The notes: generated by a model from the sequence alone, not told the origin. Positions 24,319-34,072 are shown, counted from the stretch's first letter. The stretch: 35,559 nucleotides of DNA from Nitratifractor sp. (GCA_015488535.1 WFNP01000059.1:1-35559); one strand, 5' to 3'. Translations and numbers: made by a program.

Positions 24319-25569
24319 TTATGAAGCATTTTTTCTTTGTGCCTGAAATACCCTTTGAGGATTATAAGCGACATTGTTTTTATAGATTGCCAAAACAATC
24401 TGGGCAAGCTTTCTTGCAACAATAATGACAGCCTCTTTTTTTGCTCTGCCTTGAGATATTTTGTCTCTGTAGAGCTTGTTAAGTTCGTTATTATGTCTAA
24501 TAGCGGCAATAGCAGCTTGATAGAGAGCTTTTTTTGCTAATTTGGCACCCCTTTTGGCAATATGACCATAAACAAGCTTGTTGCCAGATTGCTCTAATGT
24601 TGGATAAAGACCAAGATACCCTATAAAATGAGAAGCATTTTTAAACCTTGAGAGGTCACCACACTCACTCATAAGAGCAAAGATTGTTTTGTCACTGACT
24701 CCGGGGATACTTCTGAGATTGTCGATAATATCGATAACCTCTTGCTCATCCTCTTTGTCAAGCTCTGGTGCTTGTTTGAAAATCTTTAGCATCTCATTTT
24801 CAAGCTCTTCAAGCTCCTTTAGTAAAAGCTTGATTACTCTGATATGAGATTGTATAACATAGGCTCTTTCATCTTTACCATTGCCTTGATATATGGAGTG
24901 TTTGGCTAACTCTAAAAGTTTTTTAGCTTTTTCTTCATTAAAGTTGTTGCCTTTGATACCACGAAAGGTTTTTAAAATTCTATCCACACTAGCATATTCG
25001 TAATGCTTTGCTGTTGGATACTTTTGAAGAAGAGCTAGTCCTGTTACATTGAAAGGGTCTTTGATAACCTGTTCCATCTCAGGAAAGACAACGCTTAAAA
25101 GAGTGCTGATTTGGCGTTTATGCTTTTTCATCTCTTCAAGAAGGGATTGTTTGTGTCTGTAGAGTGCTTTGACGCTTTGATACATATCTTCACTTACATA
25201 AGCATTGGAATATCTTCCAGATTTAATAAGTGCTGCTATCATCAAAGCATCAATATTGTCGTTTTTAACCTTTTTCATACTATCCATCTCTCTAAACCTA
25301 TTTGTCTGATAAGGATTGAGTAATACTACCTTAAATCCTTTTTCTTTCAAATAAAGATAGAGATTTTCAAAGAAAAGATTGGTTGCTTCCATACCGATAG
25401 TAAAACGACTTGTATCATCGATAGAGTTTAACAGCACAAGAAGTTCACTAAACCCTTTTTCATCGTTATTGAATTTTAAGGACTTCTTTATAACTTTGTC
25501 ATTACTATCAACCACACAGGCAACATGAAAACTCTTGGCTATATCTATACCTACAAAGTAGTGCATCAT
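24319..25569 (-). CDS. IS110-family transposase (DEDD/serine recombinase)
   Basis: Intact recombinase of 416 residues. The N-terminal RuvC-like DEDD domain shows Asp9 in VGIDIAKSFH, Glu61 in GMEATN, and Asp104/Asp107 in KNDNIDALMIA. A coiled-coil middle (about 135-275) leads to the C-terminal Transposase_20 domain with IPGVSDKTI, FIGYLGLYP, the expected catalytic Ser328 in EQSGNK, and GHIAKRGAKLAKKALYQAA. In this family the enzyme excises a circle and inserts it with an RNA guide. AAGGA lies 6 bases before the ATG at 25569. No frameshift is visible, so it may be active. Confidence 0.95.
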   Translation of the reverse strand: MMHYFVGIDIAKSFHVACVVDSNDKVIKKSLKFNNDEKGFSELLVLLNSIDDTSRFTIGMEATNLFFENLYLYLKEKGFKVVLLNPYQTNRFREMDSMKKVKNDNIDALMIAALIKSGRYSNAYVSEDMYQSVKALYRHKQSLLEEMKKHKRQISTLLSVVFPEMEQVIKDPFNVTGLALLQKYPTAKHYEYASVDRILKTFRGIKGNNFNEEKAKKLLELAKHSIYQGNGKDERAYVIQSHIRVIKLLLKELEELENEMLKIFKQAPELDKEDEQEVIDIIDNLRSIPGVSDKTIFALMSECGDLSRFKNASHFIGYLGLYPTLEQSGNKLVYGHIAKRGAKLAKKALYQAAIAAIRHNNELNKLYRDKISQGRAKKEAVIIVARKLAQIVLAIYKNNVAYNPQRVFQAQRKNAS

Positions 25570-26988: not shown

Positions 26989-27951
26989 TTAATCACTCTC
27001 CACAAGTAGAGATTGAGAAAAAAATCTATCTATAGCCTCTCTCATCTGTATAGGTTCTGAGATAGTGTTTATCTCATTTCTGAATGCTCCGGCTCCTCTG
27101 AATCCGGCTTTGGAGTAGGTATGAAGATGTTTTCTAAATAGAATTACACCATAAGCGCCGTAATGCTCTATCATTCTGTCAAAATGCTCCAAAACAGCAC
27201 TTTTTATCATATCACTGTCAGGATTGTCTATACCATCTTTTATCATCTTGAATATCCACGGTTTGCCGACTGCTCCTCTGCCAATCATAATACCGTCACA
27301 CTTCGTATGCTCTAGCACCCATTTGGCTTTTTTGGGGGAGTCTATATCACCGTTGGCTATTACAGGGATATTTACTGCCTCTTTCACTTCAGCTATAGCA
27401 TCATAATCAACAGGAGCTTTAAATCTGCCACTTCTGGTTCTGCCATGCACTGCTATAAAATCTGCACCACTATCTTCACATACTTTGGCTATCTCTATAT
27501 GGTTTTTTTCACTAAAGCCCAATCTTATTTTGACAGATGTCAAAGGTTTGTTTGAGTATTTTTTTATTGTCTCTATCGCTTTGCCCATCTTGTTTAAATC
27601 TGTCAGCAGTGCGCTTCCCTGTAGATTGTTTACCACTTTTGGCACAGGACACCCACAGTTTAAATCCACAATATCCACGCCTTCCTGGGCATTAATCACA
27701 TCCAAAGCTCTTTTTAGTATTTCAGGCTCTGAACCTGCTATCTGTATAGAGTATGGTATCTCCAACGGACTTTTTTTGAGCATACCTTCAGTCTTTTTGC
27801 TACCATATGCCAAAGCATTTGAGCTAATCATCTCACTCACTGTCAAATCCACTCCAAACTTCTTGACTACAGAGCGAAATGGCAAATCAGTAAATCCGGC
27901 AAGTGGAGCTAAGGCATATACAGGTTTGGAAAAATCTAATATCATTTGCAA
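26989..27951 (-). CDS. tRNA-dihydrouridine synthase (DusB-like)
   Basis: FMN-dependent reductase of 320 residues that makes dihydrouridine in tRNA. Signatures are LAPLAGFTDLPFRS at the FMN site, VDLNCGCPVPKVV with the catalytic cysteine (Cys99-Cys101 region), VKIRLGF, AVHGRTRSGRF, VIANGDIDSP and GIMIGRGAVGKPWIF. The DusB assignment rests on general resemblance; the exact tRNA position is not known. Its start overlaps the upstream gene by 10 bases; a second ATG two codons in is equally possible. It is the last gene of the long operon. Confidence 0.93.
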   Translation of the reverse strand: MQMILDFSKPVYALAPLAGFTDLPFRSVVKKFGVDLTVSEMISSNALAYGSKKTEGMLKKSPLEIPYSIQIAGSEPEILKRALDVINAQEGVDIVDLNCGCPVPKVVNNLQGSALLTDLNKMGKAIETIKKYSNKPLTSVKIRLGFSEKNHIEIAKVCEDSGADFIAVHGRTRSGRFKAPVDYDAIAEVKEAVNIPVIANGDIDSPKKAKWVLEHTKCDGIMIGRGAVGKPWIFKMIKDGIDNPDSDMIKSAVLEHFDRMIEHYGAYGVILFRKHLHTYSKAGFRGAGAFRNEINTISEPIQMREAIDRFFSQSLLVESD

Positions 27952-28973
27952 ACTACAGCTGTATCTATCAAATCATCTATTTTGAAGTTATACTTGTTTC
28001 TCTTGAGTATCAAATAGGCTCTAAATGGCTTAAATTCATACTCGTCATGCTCTTCTAAAAATGTCTGCACTCTATCAAGCATCTCATACTCAAACAATAG
28101 ATACAAATAGGCATTTGATGCCGACTCATCTTTTTGAATTAACTTTTTAAACATAGCAAGATTTTCATCAGGAGAGAATCTCTTCAATATTGATTTTGCC
28201 AAAAACATATATCTACTGCAATCCATCTCAAACAGAGATATAAAATACTCTACCATCTCCATAGATGTAGTATTATCCTCTTTATCGCACAATCTCTTAA
28301 TCAAAACAGAAAAATGCTCATCTCTCAGTAGTGCAGAGTATTTCTTTATCTTATACAGCTCCAGTCTTGATACTGCTATATCCATAGCCTCTTTTAAAAC
28401 CTGCTCATTATAATTTTCTTTTGCAAAGAGTACCTCTTCTACATAGTTTTGTGTAGAGTGCAATCTGTTTATCTGATTTTTTACAACCCACGGATTATCA
28501 TTTGAGAGCTTTTTATCAAGCTTCTTTTCACTCAAATTTACATATTTGCCACTTTTTATATCGTCTATCGTTTCAAGTGTATCAGCAAACTTCTCACTCA
28601 ATCCCTGTATATTGCCTGTCACATTCAATATAGAGGCATTCAGTAAAACAGCTCCCTCTTTAACCTTTTCTATTGAGTATGTATGAACCTTTGGCTCATG
28701 CATCAAAGACCAAAAAAGTGCATCTTTGAGTGTTTCTGTATCTTTTGCCCACTTTCTATTATAAAAATAGTTTCTTGTTCCATGATATGCTATATGCAAG
28801 ATAGTCATAAAATAGAGCAAAAGCAAAGGAAGTGCTATCCAACCGGCTATGGGCAAAGTAAGTGTATAACCCATCATAGTGATAGTATGAGAATCGGGAT
28901 AGAGCATATATACCCCTCCTACAATAGCTACAATCAACGCAAATGCCGATACCATATATGTACCCAGATTCAT
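27942..28973 (-). CDS. Membrane-anchored protein of unknown function
   Basis: Protein of 343 residues with two N-terminal membrane helices (about 7-25 and 40-62), followed by a charged, mostly helical soluble region of about 270 residues. Segments such as DALFWSLMHEPKVHTYSIEKV and YLLFEYEMLDRVQTFLEEHDEYEFKPF suggest TPR- or HEAT-like helices. I do not recognise the family. AAGGAG stands before the ATG. It lies between the DksA-like gene (9-base gap) and dusB (10-base overlap). Confidence 0.8.
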   Translation of the reverse strand: MNLGTYMVSAFALIVAIVGGVYMLYPDSHTITMMGYTLTLPIAGWIALPLLLLYFMTILHIAYHGTRNYFYNRKWAKDTETLKDALFWSLMHEPKVHTYSIEKVKEGAVLLNASILNVTGNIQGLSEKFADTLETIDDIKSGKYVNLSEKKLDKKLSNDNPWVVKNQINRLHSTQNYVEEVLFAKENYNEQVLKEAMDIAVSRLELYKIKKYSALLRDEHFSVLIKRLCDKEDNTTSMEMVEYFISLFEMDCSRYMFLAKSILKRFSPDENLAMFKKLIQKDESASNAYLYLLFEYEMLDRVQTFLEEHDEYEFKPFRAYLILKRNKYNFKIDDLIDTAVVCK

Positions 28974-28982
28974 ATCTTCTCC

Positions 28983-29342
28983 TTAGTTATTTTGCTCTTT
29001 TTCATTTATCTCTCTACATGCTATACAAAAACGGGCAAAATTTTTGACCTTCAGCCTCTCTATACCTATAGGCTCTTCACACATTTCACATATGCCGTAA
29101 GTTCCGTTTTTGATTTTATCCAAAGCTACTTCAATTTCATTCAATTCTTCTCTTTGTGCTTCCAAAATTCTGCTGTCAATATCTGTCTGCATTGACAAAA
29201 CAGCAAAATCACCCTCATCTTTTGGCTCTTGATTTCTCATCATATTCAGCTTCTCATTGGCTTTTTGAAAATTGTTTATAATCTTTGATTTTCTATCTTC
29301 AAGCTGTTGTTTAAACATAGCTATCTCTTCAGCTGTCAACAT
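28983..29342 (-). CDS. DksA/TraR-family zinc-finger protein
   Basis: RNA polymerase secondary-channel regulator candidate of 119 residues. The coiled-coil hairpin (about 5-78) bears DEGDFA (42-47), which fits the DxxDxA tip motif of DksA, and the C4 zinc finger is Cys85, Cys88, Cys106 and Cys109 (YGICEMCEEPIG ... FCIACREIN). It is a little shorter than Escherichia DksA. With ppGpp, family members tune stable RNA and amino-acid promoters; that is assumed here. Confidence 0.9.
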   Translation of the reverse strand: MLTAEEIAMFKQQLEDRKSKIINNFQKANEKLNMMRNQEPKDEGDFAVLSMQTDIDSRILEAQREELNEIEVALDKIKNGTYGICEMCEEPIGIERLKVKNFARFCIACREINEKEQNN

Positions 29343-29381: not shown

Positions 29382-29843
29382 TTATTTATGATATGGATGA
29401 TTGTGTATTATACTCAACCCTCTGAATATCTGCTCTAGTAAAACTACTTTTACCAGTTTATGTGAAAGTGTTATTTTACCAAATGATATGGATTTATTAC
29501 TTTTATCTATAAAACTCTTTTCAAAACCGTATGCACCACCTATAAAAAAATTTATTCTTGATTTGTCTTTCAATATATCAGCAAACTGATAACTATCCAC
29601 CTCTTTGGATGATGGGTCTAAAACTACATTGTAAGCATTTGGTATATATTTTGTAAATGCCTCTGTATATGATGCTTGTGCTGTTTTGGCAGATATGTCA
29701 TGAGCTTTGGCTATATCTTTGGTATATATTTCATGCAGTTGCACTTTGGCAAATGCTTTACAACTTTTCAGATAATGCTCTATCAATGGCTCATATATAG
29801 AGTTTTTGCCCTTTTTGTCAATAATATATATATCTATTTTCAT
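29382..29843 (-). CDS. rlmH: 23S rRNA pseudouridine-1915 N3-methyltransferase RlmH
   Basis: SPOUT-class methyltransferase of 153 residues that methylates pseudouridine 1915 in helix 69 of 23S rRNA. The SAM-binding knot is shown by INFFIGGAYGFE (about 96-107), the segment ISFGKITLSHKLVKVVLLEQIFR, and the C-terminus HNHPYHK, which is invariant in the family. The ATG overlaps the helicase stop by 4 bases. Confidence 0.97.
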   Translation of the reverse strand: MKIDIYIIDKKGKNSIYEPLIEHYLKSCKAFAKVQLHEIYTKDIAKAHDISAKTAQASYTEAFTKYIPNAYNVVLDPSSKEVDSYQFADILKDKSRINFFIGGAYGFEKSFIDKSNKSISFGKITLSHKLVKVVLLEQIFRGLSIIHNHPYHK

Positions 29844-31156
29844 TCACTTACTCTCTTTTTTATACTGTTTTCCCACTCTGTTACTCTCCTATCTACTCTA
29901 ACGACTCTTTCAAGATATGCTCTAAAATCAATTCCACCAAACTCTATAAACAGATTTTCAGGAGTAATGGCACGGGATATAGCTACATAAAACTGACTAG
30001 GAGCAAAAATAGCATCTATATTACAAATCAGATTCTCTATACCCATTCCCTGAGATTTGTGTATAGTCACAGCATAGGCGGGTTTGACAGCAAATTGTGA
30101 CAGTGTAGCCACTACCTGGGTATTTATTTCCAAACCATCTGTATTTATCTCTACCATATCGAAATCATGTCTTTCTACTCTGAGATATTTGTCATCTTTT
30201 TCTATCAGTAGAAAATCATCTTCTATTTCACGCAATACTCCCCGCTCACCATTGTAATATCTACCCCATTTATTTACAGTAAACAACAAAGGAGTACCGA
30301 CTTTTAAATCCAGTATATCATTTACAGGCAGTGCCTCTTTCCATTTTTGTATTCGTGAGGGATATATACTCTTTTCACTTTTGAATATCGAAGATATGCT
30401 TTTTAAATCACCATCCAATCTGTCGATATTCTCTCTGTTTATACGGTTTACATCTATATTGCGACTGTATAATCTCGTATAGTGATGACTCTTTGCAGGA
30501 ATAGCTCTGTTTTGTATATCGCTAAGATAATCTACTGTCTCATTGTCCAACTCTCCTCTGCGAATTTTGGAGAGTATATTGGCAAAATAGTCATCTTTTG
30601 TTCGTTTTGACTCTCTCAACTCCAGCACTACAGGCTCAAAAAATCTCCATGCATCACTCTCAAATGCAAAAACTCTGTCTCCAAACAGACTATTTGAGAG
30701 TGTTGAGCTTTTTATTACAGGTGGTAATTGATAAAAGTCTCCTACCATCATTATTTTGCCTGAAAAGCCCAAACTAGTAAGACGATAGCGAACCATATCC
30801 AAAAGATTTGCAGATACCATACTAATTTCATCTATTATTATCAAATCTGTAGCAGAGATGATTTTTTTTAATTCTGACAATCGTTTTTTGTTTCGTCTGT
30901 CATGCTCTCTAAGCTCTTCAAGATTTGAGCTTATACCAAATGCAAAAAAACTGTGTATGGTAAGACCACCTATATTTACCGCACTAATCCCGGTAGAGCC
31001 AAGTGCCACCACATCTAATCCCACCTCTTTATAGCTGGATATAATATCTCTTGTCAGATAGCTTTTGCCTGTACCAGCTCCTCCGGTAATAAGCAAATTA
31101 TCATTTTTGAGTATATCAAGAGCCATATCTGTAAGATTGCTGTTTTTTTCAATCAT
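29840..31156 (-). CDS. PIF1-like superfamily 1 helicase
   Basis: AAA/SF1B helicase of 438 residues. Walker A is GGAGTGKS (25-32) and Walker B IIIDEISM (Asp109-Glu110). Motif III reads MVGDFYQLPPV, and C-terminal motifs include AVTIHKSQGMGIENL and QFYVAISRA. These fit the PIF1/RecD2 group, 5'-3' helicases that unwind G-quadruplexes, forks or recombination intermediates. There is no RecB/RecC partner in the window. It is coupled by 4-base overlaps to the small basic gene upstream and rlmH downstream. Confidence 0.9.
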   Translation of the reverse strand: MIEKNSNLTDMALDILKNDNLLITGGAGTGKSYLTRDIISSYKEVGLDVVALGSTGISAVNIGGLTIHSFFAFGISSNLEELREHDRRNKKRLSELKKIISATDLIIIDEISMVSANLLDMVRYRLTSLGFSGKIMMVGDFYQLPPVIKSSTLSNSLFGDRVFAFESDAWRFFEPVVLELRESKRTKDDYFANILSKIRRGELDNETVDYLSDIQNRAIPAKSHHYTRLYSRNIDVNRINRENIDRLDGDLKSISSIFKSEKSIYPSRIQKWKEALPVNDILDLKVGTPLLFTVNKWGRYYNGERGVLREIEDDFLLIEKDDKYLRVERHDFDMVEINTDGLEINTQVVATLSQFAVKPAYAVTIHKSQGMGIENLICNIDAIFAPSQFYVAISRAITPENLFIEFGGIDFRAYLERVVRVDRRVTEWENSIKKRVSE

Positions 31157-31353
31157 ATATGATGCTCCGATTTCAACATATCAAGCAGTTTTGACAAAAA
31201 TCCCCTTTTTGTTTTTTTGTGATGCTCTGTTGCAGTATCTACAGACCTCTTTTCTCTAAACTCTTCCTCCAGCCACCTCGATACATAATCCAGCCTCTTT
31301 ACAGCTCTTTTCAATCTTTTTGGCTCAAAATATCCCGTCTTTTCCATTATCAA
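31153..31353 (-). CDS. Small basic protein between the MotB-like and helicase genes
   Basis: Product of 66 residues (64 if the second ATG is used), rich in Lys/Arg/Glu and mostly helical: EPKRLKRAVKRLDYVSRWL at the start, KKTKRGFLSKLLDMLK near the end. No known family recognised. It overlaps the MotB-like stop by 29 bases and ends in an ATGA overlap with the helicase start. These junctions argue for a real, translated gene rather than a chance frame. It may be a nucleic-acid-binding or helicase-partner peptide, but that is a guess. Confidence 0.65.
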   Translation of the reverse strand: MIMEKTGYFEPKRLKRAVKRLDYVSRWLEEEFREKRSVDTATEHHKKTKRGFLSKLLDMLKSEHHI

Positions 31354-32716
31354 GTATCCTCTCTATCTCATCCATGGCATCTCTGTTTTTGAGCTTGAAT
31401 TTAATCTCTATTCTTCTTGAAGCCTCTTTATCCTCTACACCATTTTTCATTACAGGGTCAAGATATGCTCTTCCACTTGCTACAAGATACTTTTTCAAAT
31501 CATACTTCTTGGATACAGGCAGAGTCAAAAGATAATTCATCACAGCAAGAGCTCTTTTTTGTGATAGTTCCAAATTATAAAGATAACCTCCGTCACTGTC
31601 AGTATGCCCTTCTATCACTATTCTCTCTAGATGGGGTCTGATTGCCCGGTTGCTCATAAGTGCAGCTATATAATCTTCAAATATAGCTCTAAGCTCACTT
31701 TTGGCTTCATCTTTGAGTTTGGCACTGCCCTTGTCAAACAAAATATTTGAAGAGAGTCTAAGAGAGCCTGTTTTCTTATCGATATCGATTTTATTTCCCA
31801 AAGTCTCTTTGAGTGCGGCAATTACTTTCAGTCTGATACCTGTCAATGTCTTTATTTTTGCTTTTTGTTTTTGGAGTTTGGCTATCAAATCATCATACTT
31901 TGTCTTCTGCTCATCCAATGCTTCCAAAAGTTCTGTAAGTTTTTTATCTTTCAATTTCAACTCATCTTCTACCTTTGTCAATTTACCGGATAAGACTATG
32001 ACTCTGTTTACATATTTTTGTATCTTTTTTTGCTTATCTTGCATTGTAGTATTTGTATCTTGAGTCAGATTTTGCAATACAATAATTTTTCTGTTTAACT
32101 CATCTATCTTTGCGTTCTTTGCCAAAAGCAATTGATTTAATTTTTTTAGTTCATTCTCTTTAAGCTCAAGCTCATTATCTTTTAAAGTTATGGTTTTGTT
32201 ACTGTCTTTCATGATACTTTGGAGTTTGGCTTCACTATTTGCAAGTTTGCGATAGAGTTGTTTGTTACTGTTTTTCTCTGCTCTTAACTTCAATTTCAAA
32301 TCAGCCAAAAGCAGATGCAATTTTCTTACCTCATCCTCTTTGAGTCTTATTTTATGTATAGCTTCTTCTATTTTCTTTTTCTGTTTTCTTATAATTACGC
32401 TCTGTTTTCCTATTTTACTTTTACCACTAGCAAGAGCCTTTTCTCTATCTTTCAATTTTGCTTTGAGTCTGTTGAGATTGGCTATTTTCTCTTTTAGTAT
32501 TCTTTTTTTCTCACGCAAATCCCTGCGGGTCTTTTCTATCTCTATTCTGGCTTGGGAGAGACTTGTTTTCTTGTTTTGTAAATCTTCTCTCATTATGATT
32601 GATTTTGAGACTATTGCACCTATTAACAGGATAAATACGAACAATAATCCAGCCATCAAATCAGCGTATGATATCCAGAAGTTATTGCTCTGCTCAGTAT
32701 TGTTTTTGCGAAACAT
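31325..32716 (-). CDS. MotB/OmpA-family motor protein with long coiled coil
   Basis: Inner-membrane protein of 463 residues. One N-terminal membrane helix (about 20-42) begins with the motif SYADLMAGLL, in which Asp19 matches the proton-carrying aspartate of MotB/ZorB. A very long coiled coil (about 45-300) follows, then an OmpA-like peptidoglycan-binding domain (about 310-450: NILFDKGSAKL, VIEGHTDSDGGYLYN, LSQKRALAVMNYLL). It would bind the cell wall and form the stator's B subunit with the gene just upstream (2-base gap). It is not the flagellar MotB: the coil is far longer and no flagellar gene is near. Confidence 0.9.
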   Translation of the reverse strand: MFRKNNTEQSNNFWISYADLMAGLLFVFILLIGAIVSKSIIMREDLQNKKTSLSQARIEIEKTRRDLREKKRILKEKIANLNRLKAKLKDREKALASGKSKIGKQSVIIRKQKKKIEEAIHKIRLKEDEVRKLHLLLADLKLKLRAEKNSNKQLYRKLANSEAKLQSIMKDSNKTITLKDNELELKENELKKLNQLLLAKNAKIDELNRKIIVLQNLTQDTNTTMQDKQKKIQKYVNRVIVLSGKLTKVEDELKLKDKKLTELLEALDEQKTKYDDLIAKLQKQKAKIKTLTGIRLKVIAALKETLGNKIDIDKKTGSLRLSSNILFDKGSAKLKDEAKSELRAIFEDYIAALMSNRAIRPHLERIVIEGHTDSDGGYLYNLELSQKRALAVMNYLLTLPVSKKYDLKKYLVASGRAYLDPVMKNGVEDKEASRRIEIKFKLKNRDAMDEIERILDNGKDGIF

Positions 32717-32718
32717 AA

Positions 32719-33828
32719 CTATTGTCTGTCCCCTCTTCTTCTCTCTTCTATCTCTCTGTTGAGTTTTGCCTGAACTCTGCCGATAGTCTCTGTCATTCTG
32801 CCAAGTTTGTCTATGGCTTCTGCCAATTCATCATCAATCTTGTCAAATGTATAATTGACACTCTCATCAAATCTCAAAAGATTTCTATCAAGCTCCCTAC
32901 TGGCTCTGATAAACAAATCTATATTCCGACGCATAGCTTCTTCGGCTCTCATGGCATCTGTTTTGCTCTCCAATCTATCCAGCGTAGCTGACAAATCTTT
33001 TGAAGCCTCTTTCAGATTTTTGGCAATAAGAGACATACTCTCTGAAGATTTATCTATCAACTGTTTATAACTTCTTATATAATGATTATTCAAATCTTTT
33101 ATAAAATCCAAATTAAATGTCTCTCTCAAAGTCTCGACTATCTTATGATCTTTTAGTTCACTCTGCATATGCTCATGTTTTATCAATTCACTCTTTTTCC
33201 ATATTCTTGAGTCATACAGATTCTCCAACTCTATGACTACTCTTTCTATCTTTGCCAAGCCTCTTCTTTCAAAAAATGTCCACCACAGCGATAGAAAAAT
33301 ACCATAAATAGATGCATAAAATGCTGTCCCTATACCAGAGAGTAGCACTGATATCTGCTCATCTAGTTTTTCACTGCTTTGCACAGTAAAATCAGGCATA
33401 GATATGGCTATTGCCAAAAATGTACCCAAAATACCCAACATAGGAAAGACCATAGAGGCAATTTTTGCATAATTATCTTCTCTGATGTCCTTGAAATAAT
33501 CCTCCATAAACTCTCTGACAGTGAGTGTAGATTTGGTCTTTCCCATTATAGTAAGAGCATTTCTTTTGAGAGCATCCTGCAAATCACTCTCCATAATAGC
33601 AAAATTATTTGATATGACACATACTGAATAACTTGCATTATGTTTGACAAAAAGCAGAAAAATAAAGAAAATCACCGATATAGTAATTAATGTATGAATA
33701 CCTACTTTATATGGTATATAACCAAAATAACCAATCACTAAAACAATAACAGCTATCAACGGCACTGATACCATCATCAAAAATACACCCGGACAGTGGA
33801 CATCACTTCGACTTAATCTATCTGACAT
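32719..33828 (-). CDS. MotA/TolQ/ExbB-like proton channel protein with cytoplasmic tail
   Basis: Membrane protein of 369 residues. Helices lie at about 13-36, 43-62, 143-163 and 180-203. The third contains MLGILGTFLAIAISMP, the MotA/TolQ/ExbB signature, and the fourth GIGTAFYASIYGIFLSLWW. A charged helical tail of about 165 residues (205-369) follows, like that of ZorA. With the MotB-like partner it should form a proton-driven 5:2 motor. No flagellar, Tol or Ton genes accompany it. It is the first gene of the long operon. Confidence 0.9.
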   Translation of the reverse strand: MSDRLSRSDVHCPGVFLMMVSVPLIAVIVLVIGYFGYIPYKVGIHTLITISVIFFIFLLFVKHNASYSVCVISNNFAIMESDLQDALKRNALTIMGKTKSTLTVREFMEDYFKDIREDNYAKIASMVFPMLGILGTFLAIAISMPDFTVQSSEKLDEQISVLLSGIGTAFYASIYGIFLSLWWTFFERRGLAKIERVVIELENLYDSRIWKKSELIKHEHMQSELKDHKIVETLRETFNLDFIKDLNNHYIRSYKQLIDKSSESMSLIAKNLKEASKDLSATLDRLESKTDAMRAEEAMRRNIDLFIRASRELDRNLLRFDESVNYTFDKIDDELAEAIDKLGRMTETIGRVQAKLNREIEERRRGDRQ

Positions 33829-33859
33829 TACAAACCTCTATTTAATGATATTACAAACG

Positions 33860-33865
33860 ATTATA
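33860..33865 (-). promoter_or_regulatory. -10 box of the motor/helicase operon
   Basis: TATAAT on the minus strand, within GGTATAATCG, lies 31 bases before the MotA-like start codon. CTCTATTT/AAATAGAG (33836-33843 and 33868-33875) form inverted repeats around it and could be an operator. No clear -35 is seen. Confidence 0.5.
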
Positions 33866-33906
33866 CCAAATAGAGACTCTATTTTTGACTTTTTTCTGTT
33901 TTACCC

Positions 33907-33935
33907 TTGCTTTTAACAGATTTTACAGTTATAAT
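33907..33935 (+). promoter_or_regulatory. Promoter of the cold-shock gene
   Basis: TTGCTT (33907-33912), a 17-base spacer, and TATAAT (33930-33935). Transcription would begin near 33942, leaving a leader of about 130 bases before the ATG at 34073. The leader can form a 7-bp hairpin AAGATGA/TCATCTT. Such long leaders act as thermosensors in other cspA-type genes. Confidence 0.5.
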
Positions 33936-34072
33936 GCTCTCCGAAGAAAGATGAGGTTAGAGTTCATCTTAGCAGTGTTACATGTGTTACTCCGCTATAC
34001 CCGAAAGACTCCTCGATTATCGACTTCCACTTATAAAGTGTAAAATAATATCAATACAAAAAAGGTACAAAA

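Follow-up and report, generated by a model that had tools for sequence, protein, structure and literature searches.

In the genome of Nitratifractor sp., genes for a motor of the MotA-MotB kind lie in one tightly packed run with a gene for a small basic protein and a PIF1-like helicase gene, which raises the question of whether motor and helicase form one machine of the Zorya type or whether some of these genes are neighbours by chance. The window, i.e. the whole stretch of DNA analysed here, comprises 35,559 nucleotides (GCA_015488535.1 WFNP01000059.1:1-35559). According to the ORF map, the genes on its minus strand follow each other in the order A, B, S, PIF1-like helicase, rlmH and dksA-like gene. 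The MotA/ExbB-type A subunit gene (32719-33828, 369 aa; Pfam MotA_ExbB, 34.1 bits) and the MotB-like B subunit gene (31325-32716, 463 aa; Pfam OmpA, 53.9 bits, and a weak MotB_plug match) do not overlap and are spaced by 2 bases. The basic microprotein S is encoded at 31153-31347 (64 aa, ATG start) or at 31153-31353 (66 aa, TTG start), the ATG at 31347 being the likelier start, and its gene overlaps B by 23 bases from the ATG or by 29 bases from the TTG. The helicase gene (29840-31156, 438 aa; Pfam PIF1, 91.9 bits) overlaps both S and the downstream rlmH (29382-29843) by 4 bases, and rlmH is followed by the dksA-like gene (28983-29342). The original prediction had described the first four of these genes with the overlaps of 29 and 4 bases, and all positions and overlaps were confirmed. 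The intergenic stretch between A and a divergent cold-shock gene (33829-34072) is the presumed promoter region of A-B-S; it contains a promoter-like match of 10 of 12 positions (34044-34016, minus strand), the total count of such matches being not above chance. Further along the minus strand, a 343-aa membrane protein (27942-28973) with no significant Pfam match is encoded, whose gene accompanies rlmH and dksA within the genus. An intact IS110-type transposase-like ORF, identified by eye, was located at 24319-25569 on the same strand, approximately 4.3 kb beyond the helicase gene; it is a possible agent of local rearrangement.

The linkage of motor and helicase was examined in relatives. Among 41 related genomes, a strong match to A was found in 27 and a helicase match in 33, and A-B-S and the helicase are adjacent only in the genome studied here and in its nearest relative (G003), where S and the helicase gene overlap by 11 bases. 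In the 80 named loci, taken from GTDB genomes of Nitratifractor, Sulfurovum and other Sulfurovaceae, the helicase was located near A once (L165), and this locus is G003 itself. The order pif1-rlmH-dksA is kept in many family members that have no A-B-S beside the helicase, the helicase lies hundreds of kb from A-B in closed relatives, and some genomes without A keep the helicase, the converse also being seen. The helicase is a member of an older pif1-rlmH-dksA cluster and not a part of A-B-S, and its junction with A-B-S is a recent chance rearrangement in one small lineage; as a component of the system it was ruled out by these gene neighbourhoods. That motor, S and helicase nevertheless work in this lineage as one functional operon and a new motor-helicase machine, for which the S/helicase overlaps of 4 and 11 bases in the two genomes speak, is extremely unlikely in view of a linkage confined to these two genomes, of rlmH-dksA neighbours that persist beside the helicase elsewhere, and of a motor and a helicase that occur without each other or hundreds of kb apart. 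The coupling of motor and helicase put forward in the original prediction, which had itself named a lack of linkage in relatives as contrary evidence, was therefore abandoned, and its milder option, an envelope motor with chance neighbours, proved correct for the helicase but wrong for the small basic protein. From the predicted unit of A, B, small basic protein and helicase, the first three remain as the conserved unit A-B-S, in which S is a true partner of the motor pair.

S was found directly behind B in 63 of the 65 informative Sulfurovaceae loci, i.e. those in which B is complete and sufficient DNA follows, and a short basic ORF follows B in nearly every relative. In 35 of these 63 loci the S gene begins 11 bases before B ends, which suggests translational coupling; the assigned start codons are approximate, as are a few of the frames that were picked automatically. 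The S proteins (median pI 10.0) share a layout consisting of a conserved N-terminal segment, a linker of variable length and a basic/aromatic C-terminal segment or helix (e.g. LWKKFLxLFK), the amphipathicity of the C-terminus being only modest. The N-terminal segment reads F-[EK]-P-x-x-[LI]-x-x-A-x-x-x-L, with F in 89%, P in 78%, A in 79% and L in 83% of the sequences. Close pairs gave pN/pS values of 0.14-0.46 (median 0.24), i.e. purifying selection, and S is therefore a real gene. Moreover, matches to the S profile above chance occur only behind B in 298 Campylobacterota genomes. S is a microprotein that is not listed in the family libraries used, as it has no match in Pfam, NCBIfam or PHROG families. 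Since it is absent in Campylobacteraceae and a few other groups, it is not required everywhere.

The distribution of the motor pair is wide. A is present as a single copy in 146 of the 298 Campylobacterota genomes and in 19 of 58 genera, including nearly all sampled members of a family taken to be Campylobacteraceae (an inferred assignment), and the conservation of the pair across genera excludes chance. The gene order in this family is PEB4-like isomerase, class II aldolase (fba), A, B and PLP-dependent deaminase-like gene. By synteny, we take A-B to be Cj0598-Cj0599 of C. jejuni and the whole order to be Cj0596-Cj0600. Cj0598-Cj0599, a hypothetical and an OmpA-family protein, would be the same A-B pair behind peb4 and fba, differing from the one studied here by a longer A tail, a shorter B coil and the absence of an S gene. 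The order Cj0596-Cj0597 in C. jejuni has been described (PMC2782263), and a 'hypothetical protein Cj0598' is mentioned in the literature (PMC5841378); the literature searches retrieved no functional study of the A-B pair or of Cj0598-Cj0599. The present results provide a testable home for an uncharacterised gene pair in Campylobacter and in much of the Campylobacterota. The neighbours of A-B-S are housekeeping genes that vary between families, and none that would hint at the driven process is constant, the commonest being present in 24 of 100 loci. This commonest neighbour after A and B is a protein starting with M-x-H-x-E-K-L-x-K-A-K-x-K-L-M-L-E-H-P-Y-I-G (e.g. L158:9737-10927).

The AlphaFold (AF2) model of A consists of four TM helices and, after approximately residue 206, a helical tail (mean pLDDT 77); this cytoplasmic tail comprises 164 residues and is heptad-patterned. 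The model of B comprises one TM helix, a long helix that is interrupted at 208-225 (with low confidence) and an OmpA fold. In B, the aspartate D19, part of a YADLM aspartate helix as in ZorB, does not vary among 40 homologues, and residues H371, L384, R388, R434 and R435 fall within conserved peptidoglycan-binding motifs. Mutants of ZorB in the matching motifs lose binding (PMC11890865).

The nearest known motors were identified by sequence, fold and phylogeny. In the profile search of the PDB with A, ZorA was the nearest real relative (37 bits), the other high scorers being artificial helical bundles; with B, ZorB reached 95.9 bits versus 37 bits for MotB. Foldseek placed ZorA first for the A model (E 4e-5 versus 0.05 for TolQ), and VIA-align gave Z values of 10.2 for ZorA, 9.1 for TolQ/ExbB and 6.7 for MotA; these margins are small, and middling Z values are easily reached by helical models. 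In a tree of the TM3-TM4 core, the A family forms one clade at 82/79, and the A family together with ZorA is split from TolQ/ExbB/MotA at 99/98; since this tree comprises 102 columns only and its ZorA rows are long-branched, a position beside ZorA is safer than one inside it. ZorAB is thus the nearest characterised motor by sequence, fold and tree, and not TolQR, ExbBD or MotAB. A-B shares with ZorAB (PDB 8QYD, 8VVN, 8VVI; PMC11890865) a MotA-type A subunit with a coiled cytoplasmic tail and a B subunit with the aspartate helix and an OmpA/Pal-type wall-binding domain. In contrast to ZorAB, the A tails of the A-B-S family are shorter (149-270 residues), B has a long register-locked periplasmic coil, and the motor is coupled to the microprotein S and not to ZorC, ZorD or ZorE, in single copy on the chromosome and in a housekeeping context.

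It is very improbable that A-B is an ordinary TolQ-TolR or ExbB-ExbD pair or a flagellar stator paralogue. The MotA_ExbB domain is common to all of these, A-B has the superfamily of 5:2 proton motors and the conserved TM3/TM4 in common with TolQ-TolR and ExbB-ExbD, and the Z values of TolQ and ExbB are only about 1 below that of ZorA; likewise, flagellar MotA-MotB has an A subunit with four TM helices and a B subunit with an OmpA wall-binding domain. However, the TolR/ExbD fold and the TolA/TonB partner of the former systems are replaced by an OmpA domain in B, three other PF01618 proteins in the genome are all of ExbB/TolQ size, and the tree separates A from all these motors, with MotA having the lower fold score. 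FliG_C was not found in this 100%-complete genome, while four control genomes were positive; together with the three other PF01618 proteins, this shows that A-B is not a flagellar stator. The original prediction of an ion motor that is non-flagellar, anchored to the wall and Zorya-like in its logic agrees with the nearest solved relatives, ZorA and ZorB, and with a genome that lacks FliG. Its details also agree with the models, i.e. an A tail of about 165 residues and a B subunit with Asp19, a long coil (about 255 residues in the prediction, approximately 260 here) and an OmpA domain, and the firm placement in a TolQ/PomA clade that it had named as contrary evidence was not observed.

A-B-S would work as the ZorAB motor does, yet it is not a Zorya system. 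Two features of Zorya are present, namely an A subunit with an elongated cytoplasmic tail, albeit shorter than in ZorA, and a B subunit with a TM aspartate and a peptidoglycan-binding domain. The PADLOC ZorB1 model matched B with 196 bits, but the curated NCBIfam cut-offs were missed by far (ZorA 49.8 bits versus 500; ZorB1 69.6 bits versus 400). As the original prediction had stated, ZorC, ZorD and ZorE were not found at the locus, where the neighbours in the window are the PIF1-type helicase, RlmH and DksA; moreover, no Zorya effector was detected among 80 neighbour proteins in relatives (E 1e-15), while the control loci L245 and L246 do carry Zorya effectors. Zorya membership was rejected on the missing effectors and the unmet cut-offs. 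A Zorya-type anti-phage system with other effectors, with the motor as a sensor of wall damage and with S or a distant protein, for instance the helicase, as the part attacking phage DNA, would fit with ZorA and ZorB as nearest relatives, with the ZorB1 match and with the 4-base S/helicase overlap in this genome. It is nonetheless quite unlikely: effectors are missing beside the motor in relatives as well, the helicase is linked in 1 of the 80 named loci, A, B and helicase have no relatives on viral contigs, and instead of a patchy spread in defence islands or a mobile context, the genes occur as a single copy across whole families and among housekeeping genes. EH_Signature gave no match in this genome, in a search without a positive control, as the control genomes gave none either. 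A warning for annotation is that PADLOC-type ZorB models match core motors that are not Zorya.

The segment of B between the TM helix and the OmpA domain varies from approximately 120 to 284 residues by species and comprises 260 residues here. A hydrophobic repeat every 3.5 residues was detected in this coil, beyond all 500 shuffles, and likewise in the A tail. The distance from D19 to the first OmpA strand was determined alignment-free in 93 distinct proteins and ranges from 168 to 353 residues; it equals 3 modulo 7 in 68 proteins, 0 modulo 7 in 19 and another value in 6. Among the 33 distinct lengths, 19 share one class modulo 7, which was not equalled in any of 200,000 random draws, and the other moduli from 3 to 12 gave no signal. 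As a control, the length of the A tail from the TM3 motif to the C-terminus was not quantised. In the main class (3 modulo 7) the core positions hold one register along the coil, and the coils of the second class (0 modulo 7), which includes the B protein of this window, contain a stutter, i.e. a shift of the register by four, which accounts for the offset of this class. On a coil-free tree, 56 length changes but 15 class changes are needed, which are rough numbers from a poorly resolved tree. A coil length that varies almost only by whole heptads implies a register-locked shaft between membrane and wall, and judged from sequence, the register of the predicted shaft is fixed from one to the other. 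Removals of whole heptads from the coil are predicted to be tolerated and other deletions not. To our knowledge, based on a narrow search, no heptad-quantised ion-motor shaft has been reported. Heptad-spaced linker lengths are known in rigid signalling coiled coils, such as the phytochrome-regulated diguanylate cyclases (PMC9587094), whose linker lengths also differ by multiples of seven, although these are signalling enzymes and not shafts of ion motors. As a straight coil, the 260 residues would measure approximately 39 nm, longer than a typical periplasm, so that the shaft must bend (AF2 predicts a break at 208-225) or the picture of the shaft is incomplete. Long B coils go along with short A tails (Spearman -0.51, 38 species), a correlation that is confounded by shared ancestry.

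We consider it fairly probable that A-B-S is a proton-driven rotary motor akin to ZorAB, encoded on the chromosome and without Zorya effectors, with a lineage-specific envelope or wall task as its likeliest function and with the helicase as a mere neighbour. By analogy to the superfamily, five A subunits would surround a B dimer (5:2), and protons, the ion being assigned by homology, would pass at Asp19 of B and at TM3/TM4 of A, which are conserved. Via a parallel coiled-coil shaft, the B dimer would hold on to the peptidoglycan with its OmpA domains, as the residues shared with ZorB suggest. A would then turn against B, swinging or twisting the bundled cytoplasmic tail, and the fixed register may define the angle between membrane helices and wall-binding domains, which would allow tension or torque to be transmitted from one to the other. 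The A tails would turn or gate something cytoplasmic, for which S is the best candidate contact. The most likely location of S is the cytoplasmic face, where its N-terminal segment would contact the A tail or the N-terminus of B and its amphipathic C-terminal helix would lie on the membrane, and S may act as cap, gate or adaptor; this placement is a guess from the make-up of S, and the direction of work is assigned by homology. Since the genes are core, single-copy and effector-free, this lineage-specific task at the envelope or cell wall, i.e. sensing or working the wall, is favoured over phage defence as the role.

The motor could also deliver its torque outward via the coil, anchored by the A tail, and perform mechanical envelope work such as outer-membrane tethering, wall remodelling or surface movement. 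In favour of this explanation are the length and locked register of the periplasmic coil and a few wall genes among the neighbours (L,D-transpeptidase, SLT and MreB). It is unlikely all the same, because OmpA domains as a rule attach a protein to the wall, so that B is the fixed part, and the wall genes are too few for significance.

The preferred reading is a motor of the ZorAB kind that turns against a wall-anchored B subunit. A-B-S is real, conserved and under-described, and it includes S as a new microprotein and a shaft whose locked register is unusual. More tentatively, and with somewhat less than even chances, A-B-S might constitute a third branch of the wall-anchored rotary motors that is distinct and core and stands alongside flagellar stators and Zorya, characterised by a tailed rotor, a heptad-locked periplasmic shaft that passes wall state or torque over approximately 18-40 nm and a dedicated microprotein subunit, and the Zorya motor may have been recruited from such a housekeeping machine. 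A relative of ZorAB outside defence helps to ask where the Zorya motor originated and how wall sensing works.

Several additional loci were noted in the searches. In the control locus L246, on a P. aeruginosa plasmid, a ZorB-like ORF of only 191 aa (L246:7704-8279) is flanked by the gene annotated as ZorA and the EH-signature gene; this ORF is absent from the gene table and possibly truncated. Two matches to A were discarded, that in G019, for which PADLOC gave nothing, and that in G036, which is a ZorA2/ZorB2-like pair instead. The latter pair (L057:8806-12224, G036:C56; PADLOC 190 and 256 bits) includes an A protein of 890 aa and lies just behind an ExbB-type gene, and PADLOC gave no match for the two neighbour proteins examined. 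This pair, from a family without A-B-S, may be a further ZorAB motor that lacks effectors.
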